NCBI GenBank assembly: GCA_036275915.1
Contig: DASUCV010000011.1
Coordinates: 186,001-250,000, forward strand
DNA length: 64,000 bases
Source: Candidatus Polarisedimenticolaceae bacterium
GTDB lineage: Bacteria; Acidobacteriota; Polarisedimenticolia; Polarisedimenticolales; DASRJG01
Direction of reading: 5' to 3'
Position numbers and translations under genes: made by a program. The number at the start of each line of letters is the position of its first letter. Within the stretch, counting starts at the first letter, position 1. Positions 3,882 through 8,400 of this stretch are shown in pieces. The notes beneath the pieces were generated by a model, which made no database searches, was not told the origin of the DNA, and worked only from the letters and a program-made list of their open reading frames with translations.

Positions 3882-4616
3882 CTATCGGACACCCGGAGCA
3901 CGCCGAACATCAGCCCCCATCCCCTTCGTCGCCTCTCTGAGCGCCGCCCGCGCCAGCGTGCGCGTCGAGTCAATCACCGGGATCGGCGAATCCTCCTGCG
4001 CGATCAGGAGCGGAATCTCCGTGCAGCCCAAGACGACCGCGTCGCACCCGCGTTCGGCGAGCCCGCGGATCGCCCGGCGCAGGTACTCGCGCGACGGCTC
4101 CGTGAAGTGCCCGCTCACCAGCTCGTCGAAGATGATCGTGTTGATCCCGAAGCGCTCCTCGGCGTCGGGAACCGCGCTCCCGATGCCGCGCACCGCGAGC
4201 TTCTGGCGATAGACCGGCCCTTCCATGAGATACCGCGTCCCCGTGATGCCGAGACGCTTGTACCCGGCCGCCGCAGCGACCGCGCCGACCTCCTCCGCGA
4301 TGTGCAGCCACGGCACCGGCGACTTCTCGCGCACCAGGTCCAGCCCCTGATGTGCCGTGTTGTCGGGGCAGATCAGGATCTCCGCCCCGATCGACGCCAG
4401 CTTCCGCGCGGAGACGAGCAACAGCTCGCCCGCCTCCTCCCACCGGTCGGCCTCGATGGGACGCATGTGCTCGCTGAGCGGGATCGTGTGCATCGACACT
4501 TCGGGATGCGCGTGTCGGCCGAGGATCGCAGCACCCTCGGTGACGATCGTGCGATAGCAGAGCGCCGCGCCTTCACCGGAGACGGCGACGATGCCGATGT
4601 GTTTTGTGGATTGCAT
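3882..4616 (-). CDS. aspartate/glutamate racemase family protein
   Basis: This is a cofactor-independent amino-acid racemase of the Asp/Glu/hydantoin superfamily (244 aa), a cytoplasmic enzyme that uses two cysteines as acid and base. Both are present: C83 in ICPDNTAHQ and C198 in LGCTEIPLL, each in its typical setting. The substrate cannot be read from the sequence; aspartate or glutamate is typical of YgeA/RacD-like members. The start is taken at MQSTKHIGIV, where the conserved beta strand begins; the open frame extends 12 codons further upstream without similarity. It stands alone between two minus-strand operons. Confidence 0.88.
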   Translation of the reverse strand: MQSTKHIGIVAVSGEGAALCYRTIVTEGAAILGRHAHPEVSMHTIPLSEHMRPIEADRWEEAGELLLVSARKLASIGAEILICPDNTAHQGLDLVREKSPVPWLHIAEEVGAVAAAAGYKRLGITGTRYLMEGPVYRQKLAVRGIGSAVPDAEERFGINTIIFDELVSGHFTEPSREYLRRAIRGLAERGCDAVVLGCTEIPLLIAQEDSPIPVIDSTRTLARAALREATKGMGADVRRAPGVR

Positions 4617-4744
4617 GGACGTAGGTATGACGGACGCGCGCCTTGCGCGCAAGCTTCAGAGCAAATCGATCGCGGAGAGCCGCGCGCGGGCGGCCGGGCC
4701 GTCGCCGTGTCCGTGAGTCGATCGACGGCTGGTATCGGCATCCT

Positions 4745-5341
4745 TCAGTATCCGACCCCCCAATGCGCATCGAACGCGATCTCACCGATCGGCTTCCGCC
4801 GGCGCGGGGCGTGCTCGCGCTCGCGAAGCGTGGCAGGGAGGTCGTCCGCCGTGCCGGGATGGCCGAGCGCGATCATCGCCATCGGGGTGAATCCGTCGGG
4901 GATGCCGAACAGCTCGCGCGCGCGATCGGCATCGAAGCCGGCCATGAGGTGAACCGCGAGGCCAAGAGCGGTCGCCTCGAGGGCAAGGTTCTCGGAGGCG
5001 AGGCCGACATCGTGCTGCGCGTGCCGGTTCGGGGTTCCGTCAGTCCATCGCTCGGCGGCAACAGACAAGAGGAGCACCGGCGCCCGCCGCGCCCACGCGT
5101 TGCCGTCGACGAGACAGCTTCGCGCGCGCTCGAGCGCCTCCTGGTCCTCGGCGTCAAAAACGAGAAAGCGCCACGGCTGCTCGTTGAAGCATGACGGCGC
5201 GATCCGCGCCGCTTCGAGAAGCGTGCGGATCGCAAGTCGCGAGACCGGCCGACGGGGATCGATCGCCCGTGGGCTCCTGCGTCTGGCGAGAAGCTCATGG
5301 ACGAGTGGAGGGCCGTCGAGGGCGCGGACCGGCGTGCTCAT
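4745..5341 (-). CDS. nitroreductase family protein
   Basis: A flavin-dependent nitroreductase-family oxidoreductase (198 aa). The N-terminal RRSPRAIDPRRPV and the stretch APSCFNEQPWRFLV are the classic FMN-binding signatures, and the C-terminal half has MIALGHPG followed by a basic tail. Enzymes of this fold reduce nitro groups, quinones or flavins with NAD(P)H. The ATG overlaps the stop of the upstream monooxygenase gene by 4 bp, so translation is coupled. It may supply reduced flavin or process the monooxygenase product; that role is inferred from position only. It is the last gene of the three-gene operon behind the Cys-codon leader. Confidence 0.88.
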   Translation of the reverse strand: MSTPVRALDGPPLVHELLARRRSPRAIDPRRPVSRLAIRTLLEAARIAPSCFNEQPWRFLVFDAEDQEALERARSCLVDGNAWARRAPVLLLSVAAERWTDGTPNRHAQHDVGLASENLALEATALGLAVHLMAGFDADRARELFGIPDGFTPMAMIALGHPGTADDLPATLREREHAPRRRKPIGEIAFDAHWGVGY

Positions 5342-6399
5342 GCGACGGACTCCTCTCCCTGCCGGCGCAGCCGGGGGATCACCTCTGAGGCGAAGCGATC
5401 CATCTCCTCCGCCTGCGGCGAGAACTGAAGAAGCGTCAGATCGGCGCCCGCTCGCTCGAACGCGCCGAGCCGCTCCGCGATCGCGTCGGGGGTTCCGACG
5501 AGCCCCGACCGCAGGCCACGGTTCGAGACCGAGTAGTCCTCGAGGCTGACCCTCGTCTCGAGCTTCGTGCCGGCGATCCATTGCTCGTAGTTGGAGTAAC
5601 CGCGCGCGCTCGCGCGCACGTCGGTGATGCGCGCGATCTCACGTCTCGCGGCCTCGTCGGTCCTGCGGCAGACGACGAAGCCGGAGACGCCGAAGAGGAG
5701 CGGTGGTGCGTTCGGGGCGAGGCGCGCGCGACGCTCCCGCATGTCGGCGATCTTGCGGGCGATCGTCTCGGGCGCGTCGCCGTGCATGACGTAAGCGTCC
5801 CCTTGGCGCGCGATCAGGTCCTTCGCGGCTTCCGACTCGCCGCCGGCGTAGAACGGGGGCCACGGCGCGCGGGCGGGCTTGGGCTCGAGGATCGCCTCGT
5901 CGATCCGGTAGAGCTGCCCGGCGTGCGTGAACCTGGATTCGGTCCACATTCCCTTGACGACCGAGAGCCACTCGTCCGTGCGCTCGTAGCGCCGGTCGTG
6001 CTCGTCGAACGGAAGTCCGTGCTGCCTCGACTCATCCTTCCACCACGAGGAGACGACGTTCAAGGCCAGCCGTCCGCCGCTGATCCGATCGATGTTGGCC
6101 GCCTGCTTGGCGAAGAGCGCCGGATGGTGGAACGTCGGCCGCACCGCGACCATCAGCTCGAGGCGGCGTGTGACCGCGGCCAACGCCGCCGCCGTCGACC
6201 ACGCGTCGAGCGCGGGGGCCTCCGGGCCTTTGATGTCGTTCAGATTCAGCTCCGCGACGAGCGTGAGGTCGAACCCGATCTTCTCGCTGCGCACCGCGAG
6301 GTCGCGCACGTACTCCCAGGTCGCGGGCATTCCCTCGTCGTCGACGTTGCGGAGCCATCCTCCGAAGACGGGGAGCCAATATCCGAATCTCAAGCTCAT
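5338..6399 (-). CDS. LLM-class FMNH2-dependent monooxygenase (SsuD/SfnG-like)
   Basis: A bacterial luciferase-like TIM-barrel flavin monooxygenase (353 aa). It begins LRFGYWLPVFGGWLRN, carries RPTFHHPALFAKQAANIDRI and the signature GGRLALNVVSSWWKDE, and ends with LVGTPDAIAERLGAFERAG. All are typical of alkanesulfonate and dimethylsulfone monooxygenases (SsuD, SfnG), which use reduced FMN and oxygen to release sulfite from C-S bonds. The exact substrate is unknown. It overlaps the ATP-grasp gene and the nitroreductase gene by 4 bp each, giving a tight three-gene unit. The leader peptide with three Cys codons upstream fits a sulfur-supply role. Confidence 0.88.
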   Translation of the reverse strand: MSLRFGYWLPVFGGWLRNVDDEGMPATWEYVRDLAVRSEKIGFDLTLVAELNLNDIKGPEAPALDAWSTAAALAAVTRRLELMVAVRPTFHHPALFAKQAANIDRISGGRLALNVVSSWWKDESRQHGLPFDEHDRRYERTDEWLSVVKGMWTESRFTHAGQLYRIDEAILEPKPARAPWPPFYAGGESEAAKDLIARQGDAYVMHGDAPETIARKIADMRERRARLAPNAPPLLFGVSGFVVCRRTDEAARREIARITDVRASARGYSNYEQWIAGTKLETRVSLEDYSVSNRGLRSGLVGTPDAIAERLGAFERAGADLTLLQFSPQAEEMDRFASEVIPRLRRQGEESVA

Positions 6400-7403
6400 A
6401 GCCCCCTCCCCCCGGCCGCGGCGGCCGGCGCCTCGGCGTCCTCGGACCTTGCACGTGCAAGAAGGGCGTCGACGAGGCGCGCGGTCGGGTCGAGTCCCAC
6501 GACACGCACCGGATCGGCGACGAAGTTGGAGAGCGCGTTGACGTCATAGAAGTACAGGCGCCCATCGCGATCGCTTTCCAGGTACTCGATCCCTCCGACG
6601 TCGAGGTCGGCCGCCTGCGCGATCCGCTCGACCTGCCGGACGATCTCGGCCGGTGGCGTGAACGCCTCGACGGTCAGGCCCGCCTTGGCCGCGCCGACCG
6701 GACACGCGGCGCTCACGAGGTCGTCGCCCCCCACGGTCTTGCACACATCCGCGGGGCAGAGGTCGAATCCCGCGCCTTCGCCGAGATGAATGCGGATCCC
6801 GTAGAGGTACCGTCCCTCGAGCGTCTCGACACGGACGATCGAATCGTGTCGGGGCGCGTGGTACTCCTGGAGCAGGGTCGTGCCGTCCAAGCCGGTCCCG
6901 ACGCGGCCTGCGACGACCGCGGCCAAGAGCTCCGAGGCATCGTCGAACCGGATAATCCCGGCTCCGCTTCCACCGACGTTCGGCTTGACGACGAGCGGGA
7001 AGCGAAGCTCTCGCGAAGCACCGAGCAGGAGCGACGGGTGGTTGACGACGCGCGTGCGCGGGACGGGAAGTTGCAGCCGCTCCAAGAGCGACACTTGCAA
7101 CGCTTTGCTGATCTCGAAGCCGAAGGCGCGAGCGCCGTTGAACACGGGAACGCCGCGGCCCTCGACGTGCGCGATGAAGTCACGCGTCGAAAAGATCGCC
7201 TCGCCATGGCCTCGCTTCCACGCCGAAGGGCTCATCCGGTTGAAGAGGAGCGCGAACGACTCCTCGTGGCCCGCGGGATCGAACGCATGCCGCGCGGCGT
7301 CGAGCTTGAGGAAGGGAATACCCCGGCGCGAGAGCTCCGCGAAGAGCGGCTCGAACCAATGCGGATGCTCGTAGAAGATCGCGATCGGTCGTGTGAGGGC
7401 CAT
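6396..7403 (-). CDS. ATP-grasp enzyme, RimK-like
   Basis: An ATP-grasp ligase-type protein (335 aa). FPLVVKPNVGGSGAGIIRF is the ATP-binding lysine and Gly-rich loop, LLQEYHAPR the adenine-contacting strand, and GGIEYLESDRDGRLYFYDVNALSNF the Mg-binding Asp/Glu/Asn region. Members join a carboxylate to an amine or thiol through an acyl phosphate; the substrate here is unknown. An AGGAGG ribosome-binding site lies 10 bases before the ATG. It is the first full-length gene after a terminator-like hairpin and a Cys-rich leader peptide, and it overlaps the monooxygenase gene by 4 bp. RimK-like ligases in sulfur-linked operons are not a well-known theme, so the partner reaction is open. Confidence 0.82.
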   Translation of the reverse strand: MALTRPIAIFYEHPHWFEPLFAELSRRGIPFLKLDAARHAFDPAGHEESFALLFNRMSPSAWKRGHGEAIFSTRDFIAHVEGRGVPVFNGARAFGFEISKALQVSLLERLQLPVPRTRVVNHPSLLLGASRELRFPLVVKPNVGGSGAGIIRFDDASELLAAVVAGRVGTGLDGTTLLQEYHAPRHDSIVRVETLEGRYLYGIRIHLGEGAGFDLCPADVCKTVGGDDLVSAACPVGAAKAGLTVEAFTPPAEIVRQVERIAQAADLDVGGIEYLESDRDGRLYFYDVNALSNFVADPVRVVGLDPTARLVDALLARARSEDAEAPAAAAGGRGL

Positions 7404-7448
7404 GGCGTCGTGTCCTCCTGTCCCGCGAGGCGACGCCGGTGCCGGACA

Positions 7449-7482
7449 ACAAAAAACCCGCTCCGGCGGCGCCGTTGCGGGT
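7449..7482 (-). terminator. intrinsic terminator / attenuator before the ATP-grasp operon
   Basis: On the minus strand ACCCGC (7482-7477) pairs with GCGGGT (7461-7456). An inner CGGC/GCCG stem lies between them, and a T-run (TTTTT, with TT after one G) follows. The hairpin is between the leader peptide stop (7515) and the ATP-grasp start (7403). It would therefore stop transcripts before the operon unless an alternative structure forms, as expected of a transcription attenuator. Confidence 0.7.
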
Positions 7483-7514
7483 CTGAAATGCTCGAACCTC
7501 AGATCAGTGGTGGC

Positions 7515-7586
7515 TCAGGCTCGCGGCACTCCTCTCCCGCCTTGGGTTCGACAACAACACATGAGCATGCGGGAACGCGAGGCCAT
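7515..7586 (-). CDS. Cys-Cys-Cys leader peptide (23 aa), putative attenuator
   Basis: A 23-codon ORF starts with ATG at 7586 behind a perfect AGGAGG site (7597-7592) at a 5-base spacing. It begins MASRSRMLM, followed by three consecutive TGT cysteine codons (7559-7551), then RTQGG, and ends in TGA at 7515. An intrinsic terminator follows within 35 bases, and beyond it are the ATP-grasp, sulfonate/sulfone-type monooxygenase and nitroreductase genes. Poly-Cys leader ORFs are known cysteine-responsive attenuators in mycobacteria. By analogy, ribosome stalling at these codons when Cys-tRNA is scarce would favour readthrough. The ORF and its signal sequences are visible; the regulatory role is inferred. 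Confidence 0.7.
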   Translation of the reverse strand: MASRSRMLMCCCRTQGGRGVPRA

Positions 7587-7608
7587 CACTTCCTCCTGAG
7601 GCCTCGAC

Positions 7609-7614
7609 AATATA
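7609..7614 (-). promoter_or_regulatory. -10 element for the leader-peptide transcript
   Basis: TATATT on the minus strand (five of six consensus bases) would start transcription near 7602. That leaves about 16 bases before the leader ATG, enough for its AGGAGG site. No good -35 box is seen at 16-18 bases, so an activator may be needed. Confidence 0.4.
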
Positions 7615-7769: not shown

Positions 7770-8138
7770 TCACCCGAAGAGCACGACGTGCAGGCCGACT
7801 TGGAGCTTCGGGAGGGGCACCGGCGGCGGACTCGGCAACGGCGGGAGTGCCAAGACGTGGCGCACCTCGACACGCACGTCGGGCTCGAACCCTTGCCGGA
7901 GTACCCAGCGCCCGTCGATCAGGAACCACGCGCGATCGTCATAGCGCGGGTCGACGGCGACGTAACACCGCTCCGGGACGCTGGGCCCGAACTTCTTCGC
8001 GAGCCCTGGCGGGAGACCGCCATGCTTCGCGTGGCCGGGAGGTTCGCCATGGTGGTGGTCGCCGCGGACGGGCTCGGCAGCGGAGACGATGCCGAAACAG
8101 AGCGCGGATGCGACGAGGATCGAGAGACTGGCTCGCAT
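7770..8138 (-). CDS. secreted protein, RcnB-like / Pro-rich
   Basis: A small exported protein (122 aa). The ATG at 8138 has a GGAGGT site six bases upstream, and residues 1-21 form a signal peptide (LSILVASALCFGIVSAAEP). A His/Gly-rich linker (GDHHHGEPPGHAKHG) leads into LPPGLAKKFG and a short domain with DDRAWFLIDGRWVL, similar in style to periplasmic RcnB/YXWGXW-type proteins. The C-terminus is Pro-rich. The His-rich linker could bind metal, but the function is unknown. It is divergent from yqeY, and the 262-base gap between them shows no clear element. Confidence 0.7.
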   Translation of the reverse strand: MRASLSILVASALCFGIVSAAEPVRGDHHHGEPPGHAKHGGLPPGLAKKFGPSVPERCYVAVDPRYDDRAWFLIDGRWVLRQGFEPDVRVEVRHVLALPPLPSPPPVPLPKLQVGLHVVLFG

Positions 8139-8400
8139 GAGGCACCTCCGAAGTCGTTGGCGCGATGGCCGATGCGATTGACCCCGCTCGACCAAGCAGG
8201 AGACAGTGCTATCCCCGTGCCAGGTGCGAACACACGGTCTTTTCATCGGCGCGTGCGTCATTTCTACCCGTCTCGTGACCAGGGCGCGATAGTCGAGATA
8301 CACGGATGGGGCGCCCTCCCGCGCGTCCGTGCGTCGAGGTGAGTTCGGTGCGCCGATGGTATCGTCGGTCGTTGGATTCCACTCAGCGACCGAGAGACAC

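Follow-up and report, generated by a model that had tools for sequence, protein, structure and literature searches.

A probable cysteine-responsive attenuator ahead of an ATP-grasp/monooxygenase operon in Acidobacteriota

In the stretch of acidobacterial DNA analysed here (the window, 64,000 nt), a short open reading frame (ORF) with consecutive Cys codons lies upstream of genes for an ATP-grasp protein and a flavin-dependent monooxygenase. This arrangement raises the question of whether the ORF encodes a leader peptide through which the level of charged tRNA-Cys sets the expression of the genes behind it.

The leader, the terminator and the downstream genes

A sequence-only reading of this DNA had described an AGGAGG site and a 23-codon ORF with three Cys codons in a row, and direct reading of the minus strand confirmed both (Table 1). 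The leader ATG occupies 7584-7586, separated by 5 nt from the AGGAGG; 11 codons lie between the Cys run and the stop, which is about 110 nt from the ATP-grasp start (ATG at 7403). Upstream of the -10-like hexamer the window has only a poor -35 element (TTCCCC, spacer 19). The intrinsic terminator proposed to follow the leader was borne out by sequence and by RNAfold, at 7454-7484 rather than at 7449-7482. It reads AGACCCGC-15 nt-GCGGGTTT followed by TTT, with a T tract extending to 7451, begins 30 nt after the leader stop, and has an 8-bp stem that is present in both the MFE and the centroid structures. The 15-nt loop, which contains a CGGC/GCCG stem of its own, was too long for a simple terminator scan with a loop limit of 8, and the hairpin was missed by that scan. 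A search of the window against Rfam gave no family above the gathering threshold. When the 4.5-Mb genome was searched for TGTTGYTGY-N65-95-TTTTT, the window leader was the single place found, with none in the reversed control, so the arrangement is not a chance one; the pattern TGCTGYTGY-N60-90-TTTTT had zero occurrences in the same genome. A search of the assembly for a 16S rRNA gene found none.

Table 1. Coordinates of the genes and of the observed and predicted regulatory features in the window.
Feature	Coordinates	Strand	Basis or remarks
ATP-grasp protein (distant RimK type), first in the putatively controlled operon	6396-7403	-	Profile and homolog searches
FMNH2-dependent luciferase-family monooxygenase, SfnG/SsuD-like	5338-6399	-	Overlaps ATP-grasp stop codon
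Nitroreductase-family protein	4745-5581	-	Start codon uncertain; overlaps monooxygenase gene
-10-like hexamer TATATT	7609-7614	-	22 nt upstream of leader ATG
Shine-Dalgarno sequence AGGAGG of leader ORF	7592-7597	-	Read directly
Leader ORF MASRSRMLMCCCRTQGGRGVPRA, stop included	7515-7586	-	23 codons; read from sequence
Proposed control codons TGT TGT TGT (three Cys)	7551-7559	-	Read from sequence
Region 2, GCGGG	7536-7540	-	Predicted to pair with 7477-7481 (CCCGC) as antiterminator; duplex and fold prediction
Inner helices of antiterminator arm	7485-7532	-	Predicted fold
Intrinsic terminator hairpin	7454-7484	-	Direct reading and RNAfold
Region 3, terminator ascending arm	7477-7484	-	Sequence and fold
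Region 4, terminator descending arm	7454-7461	-	Sequence and fold

All three of the genes expected downstream, for the ATP-grasp protein, the monooxygenase and the nitroreductase, are present, but the conserved unit consists of the first two, which are adjacent at most homologous loci and are also paired in records that bear the labels Gemmatimonadetes and Proteobacteria. The nitroreductase gene falls outside this unit, standing at the operon in the window only among the homologous loci compared; as a guess, its product could serve as flavin reductase. In two Gemmatimonadetes records the sequence just 5′ of the ATP-grasp gene has what we take, by eye, to be a resemblance to an SsuE-type flavin reductase. 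The nitroreductase gene in the window is followed by an aspartate/glutamate racemase-family gene (3882-4652, minus strand; 100.9 bits against the cysteate racemase CuyB, cut-off 190), which may or may not be a member of the operon.

The SsuD/SfnG-like label proposed for the monooxygenase holds to the extent that the protein belongs to the luciferase family and has SfnG (TIGR04021) as its best curated match (240.6 bits). It reaches neither the SfnG cut-off (382.95) nor that of SsuD (518.2), so the family match does not fix its substrate. The luciferase-family fold is common to SfnG, SsuD, MsuD and the window protein, which differs from them in scoring below the cut-offs and in being encoded, at most loci here, beside an ATP-grasp gene; its relatives in the PDB are 3rao, 8vw6 (the closest), 8t0u and 7jv3. 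On a Spirosoma plasmid (L175, 3992-8918), two genes for amino acid permeases and one for a flavin oxidoreductase of the same class come after the ATP-grasp gene; on a Pediococcus plasmid (L176, 2754-4939), a distant ATP-grasp homolog lies behind a gene for a dicarboxylate/amino acid symporter. These permease and symporter neighbours hint that the ATP-grasp substrate may be an imported amino acid or a derivative of one. In the genome of the window, the PAPS/APS reductase family gave one weak partial match (26.7 bits over 62 residues; L088, contig C18, 341373-341564). This genome may lack ordinary assimilatory sulfate reduction, and the weak match is compatible with, though no proof of, a dependence on organic sulfur.

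Leaders at orthologous loci and at cysteine synthase genes

Among 60 relatives, the ATP-grasp gene was found in three other genomes of the same class (67-68% identity), and the class yielded no further ones. All three carry a short Cys-run ORF and a terminator upstream of the gene, with the leaders MNSGLRLLLLDGVMCCPRPERGGSVPSLNH (L003), MPGKLSNLIFCTCCPRSRRGGSGTGPGN (L004) and MQRASHLRPAISSTCCCPCVSGDGGIRD (L005). In a phylum sample of 396 genomes the gene occurs in 29, and six more leaders (L013, L014, L016, L020, L021 and L029) bring the loci with a Cys-run short ORF and a terminator to 10 of the 29, in eight families. The initial proposal had been staked on the leader codons being kept in homologous operons; they are kept at these ten loci, all three same-class genomes included. 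The leader peptides have two to four closely spaced Cys codons in common and little else, and TGT makes up 31 of their 39 Cys codons; its share of Cys codons in the coding ORFs of the window is 14% (36/259). A hairpin with a T-rich tract is present in all ten, and the terminator starts 23-33 nt past the leader stop in nine. When the loci were scanned automatically for a short ORF that contains a doublet of one amino acid and has a terminator behind it, Cys was returned at 11 of the 29 loci, namely the ten counted here and L028, which was judged a chance occurrence, and any other amino acid at six loci at most; about 0.1 Cys loci would be expected from 700 kb of control DNA of these genomes. 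Another apparent leader, at L033, was set aside as chance or weak.

A Cys leader is missing at the remaining 19 orthologous loci, most of which belong to one family and have another upstream element in common, and no Cys leader with a terminator was found at the homologous loci outside the phylum (L006-L011). In one genus (g60, family f18; L022-L028 and L030), the operons without the Cys leader carry, some 60-130 nt upstream of the ATP-grasp start, CATCTAAACTTGAGATATTAGATTCGAG ... GTTGTAACTG ... TTTTGAGTCGAAC, including an inverted repeat ATCTAA/TTAGAT. A different regulator probably binds at this element.

σ70-like sites can be read in the sequence immediately ahead of nearly all leaders. A promoter at this place appears to be the rule, since the relatives have TTGAC(A/G/T) -35 boxes at the position matching that of the window. 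The leaders at L003, L004 and L005 lack a Shine-Dalgarno sequence, and 6 nt separate their ATG from the end of the -10 hexamer, suggesting that these leader peptides may be translated from leaderless transcripts, outside mycobacteria.

Leaders of the same kind precede two cysteine synthase family genes. At L093 a Cys-run leader ending MQPTFCCRRLTRPFERM is followed by a terminator, an AGGAGG and cysK, and at L111 a gene that scores below the curated cut-off of the family has its own Cys-run leader, MNYAYHCCCCTYCACCPGRDRESFRGSEEQVSS, and a terminator; both genomes also carry the operon leader. No Cys leader with a terminator was found at the 30 top-scoring cysK loci in a sample of 149 genomes, so this control of cysK is evidently confined to few lineages. 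Two apparent cysK leaders were rejected, that at L101 as lying on the wrong strand and that at L106 as lying far upstream. A looser pattern (TTYTT), and the strict one when applied to the nine other genomes, gave counts that did not improve on the reversed control where genomes were larger, so a pattern search cannot list the regulon there.

Pairing of the terminator arm and the proposed switch

The terminator stems differ in sequence between families, and region 2, just after the Cys codons, varies in step. GCGGG in region 2 faces CCCGC in the ascending arm in the window and at L003, L004, L005 and L013, GAGCG faces CGCTC at L014, GAGCGG faces CCGCTC at L016 and AGCGG faces CCGCT at L020, and the corresponding helix is longer at L021 and L029. 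In the window, the predicted antiterminator also has an inner helix (GGAGTGC, 7526-7532, with GCATTTC, 7485-7491) and a nested stem. Folding was modelled for RNA made as far as the terminator loop, with the ribosome positioned on the first Cys codon of the run, and in this stalled state the ascending arm was paired upstream in all ten leaders. The cysK leaders behaved likewise in the same model, strongly at L111 and partly at L093 (4 of 12). With the ribosome placed at the stop codon the ascending arm was largely released and the terminator formed, the modelled release in the window being incomplete (0.44, partly arm bases within an upstream hairpin). The antiterminator pairing exceeded that of dinucleotide shuffles of the intervening segment jointly over the ten leaders (p=0.00015), and own arms paired better than swapped arms (p=0.003). 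Significance belongs to the set: single-leader shuffle tests were mostly weak (window, p=0.24) and single-leader duplex tests mostly not significant (window duplex alone, p=0.49). Without a ribosome, region 1 of the window leader hardly sequesters region 2 (0.61 versus 0.62). In equilibrium folds of the full transcript the terminator was preferred in nine of the ten leaders even with a stalled ribosome, so the switch would have to act co-transcriptionally, as is usual for attenuators and is assumed for these leaders.

The transcript would start just before the leader ORF, with the ribosome trailing RNA polymerase. Were Cys-tRNA scarce, the ribosome translating the leader would wait at the three TGT codons and leave GCGGG free to pair with CCCGC before the descending arm exists, and the polymerase would read through into the ATP-grasp and monooxygenase genes. 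Were cysteine plentiful, the ribosome would move on to the stop codon (30 nt upstream of the hairpin), region 2 would be unavailable and the terminator would form. At times of shortage, the operon would then draw on an organic sulfur compound to supply sulfur for cysteine. We consider it highly likely that the locus is a classical ribosome-mediated transcription attenuator sensing charged tRNA-Cys; judged from sequence, leader and terminator very probably act as a switch by which low cysteine turns on a little-known sulfur-scavenging operon.

The same parts can be read in other ways. A gene at 7770-8141 lies on the same strand as the operon, and the hairpin might be its terminator, with the operon promoter after the hairpin and the short ORF, unremarkable in length by itself, there by chance. 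The recurrence of leader and terminator at 10 of 29 orthologous loci, where 0.1 would be expected, and the kept spacing from leader stop to hairpin make this reading very improbable; that no σ70-like site was found between hairpin and gene argues weakly in the same direction, as the scan found none across the whole region. A structured region with a terminator ahead of sulfur-type genes would also suit a metabolite-binding riboswitch, for a sulfur compound for example, with an aptamer overlapping the short ORF. Rfam families gave chance-level scores only, however, and what is conserved across families is Cys codons and complementarity rather than any aptamer sequence, so a riboswitch deserves scarcely any credence.

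With the terminator switch unchanged, the sensor could instead be a Cys-rich arrest peptide, the thiols of which would halt the ribosome by binding metal or by sensing oxidation while in or close to the exit tunnel. Cys residues are the sole conserved ones and CCC or CCxC could bind metal, but their spacing and context vary (CC, CTCC, CCCxC, CMCCC and CCCC) in a way that fits codon counting and not a binding site. Peptide chemistry moreover leaves the enrichment of the rare TGT codon unexplained, and the presence of similar leaders before two cysteine synthase genes also speaks against an arrest peptide, which we regard as unlikely. Mycobacterial polycysteine ORFs have been proposed to work by translational coupling or Rho-dependent termination, and leader translation might act mainly in that way here too, with the hairpin secondary. 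The mycobacterial Cys leaders have no conserved terminator hairpin (PMC1262725), whereas all leaders here are followed, at a nearly constant distance, by an intrinsic terminator, and in the window the gene start is too far from the leader stop for simple coupling; such a mechanism is most improbable here. Attenuation through charged tRNA-Cys is thus the reading that we prefer.

Known cysteine leaders and the role of the operon

In its order of leader peptide, control codons, antiterminator and terminator, the arrangement matches attenuators of the trp, his and ilv type, from which the window leader differs in having cysteine as the control amino acid; a run of control codons, a terminator between leader and first gene, and a predicted competing antiterminator are all found. 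That poly-Cys leaders are known in mycobacteria, as the sequence-only reading stated, agrees with the literature: Seliverstov et al. 2005 (PMC1262725) predicted Cys-codon leaders that lack terminators in actinobacteria, mycobacterial ones were seen by ribosome profiling (Shell et al. 2015, PMC4633059), and by the title of Canestrari et al. 2020 (cited in PMC13236596) the polycysteine leaders of mycobacteria are cysteine-responsive attenuators. Mycobacterial polycysteine ORFs likewise place a Cys run ahead of sulfur or cysteine genes, but they have been reported without a conserved terminator hairpin and have their Cys codons near the leader stop, whereas in most leaders here the codons lie further from it. 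The mycobacterial ORFs are also leaderless, as predicted for L003, L004 and L005, whereas the window leader has a Shine-Dalgarno sequence and begins 22 nt after the -10 hexamer.

The nearest terminator-bearing analogue is uORFC-8-2, a predicted element of Rhodobacterales that lies ahead of cysS and combines a Cys-codon uORF with an intrinsic terminator (RNA Biol 2021, PMC8632094). Both have a short ORF, tandem Cys codons, an intrinsic terminator and a proposed ribosome-mediated attenuation by the level of Cys-tRNA. In contrast to uORFC-8-2, which targets cysS in Alphaproteobacteria and has mostly UGC codons and a conserved sequence, the leaders here belong to another lineage, are UGU-rich, have no common primary sequence, and precede the ATP-grasp/monooxygenase operon, as in the window, and two cysK genes. 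In a 2010 survey, predicted attenuators in Acidobacteria were almost all without an associated function (PMC2965389). Within a partial coverage of the literature, no published description was found of Cys leaders in acidobacteria or before the ATP-grasp/monooxygenase pair, in line with the novelty claimed at the outset. The mechanism is already known; the target and the lineage are new.

For the phylum as a whole, the arguments seem to us evenly balanced as to whether these leaders form a scattered cysteine-attenuation regulon, with terminator sequences differing by family, that marks an unrecognised route of sulfur acquisition in which the ATP-grasp protein and the FMNH2-dependent monooxygenase, encoded in some bacteria beside amino acid permeases, would free sulfur for cysteine synthesis. 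Taken together, these findings would add a further lineage and a new target to cysteine attenuation of the kind that uses an intrinsic terminator. Since the end product can be read from the control codons, the leader would tie an uncharacterised ATP-grasp and flavin monooxygenase pair, present in several phyla, to cysteine supply, in which the operon presumably takes part, and it would offer a clue to the function of that pair beyond sequence similarity alone.
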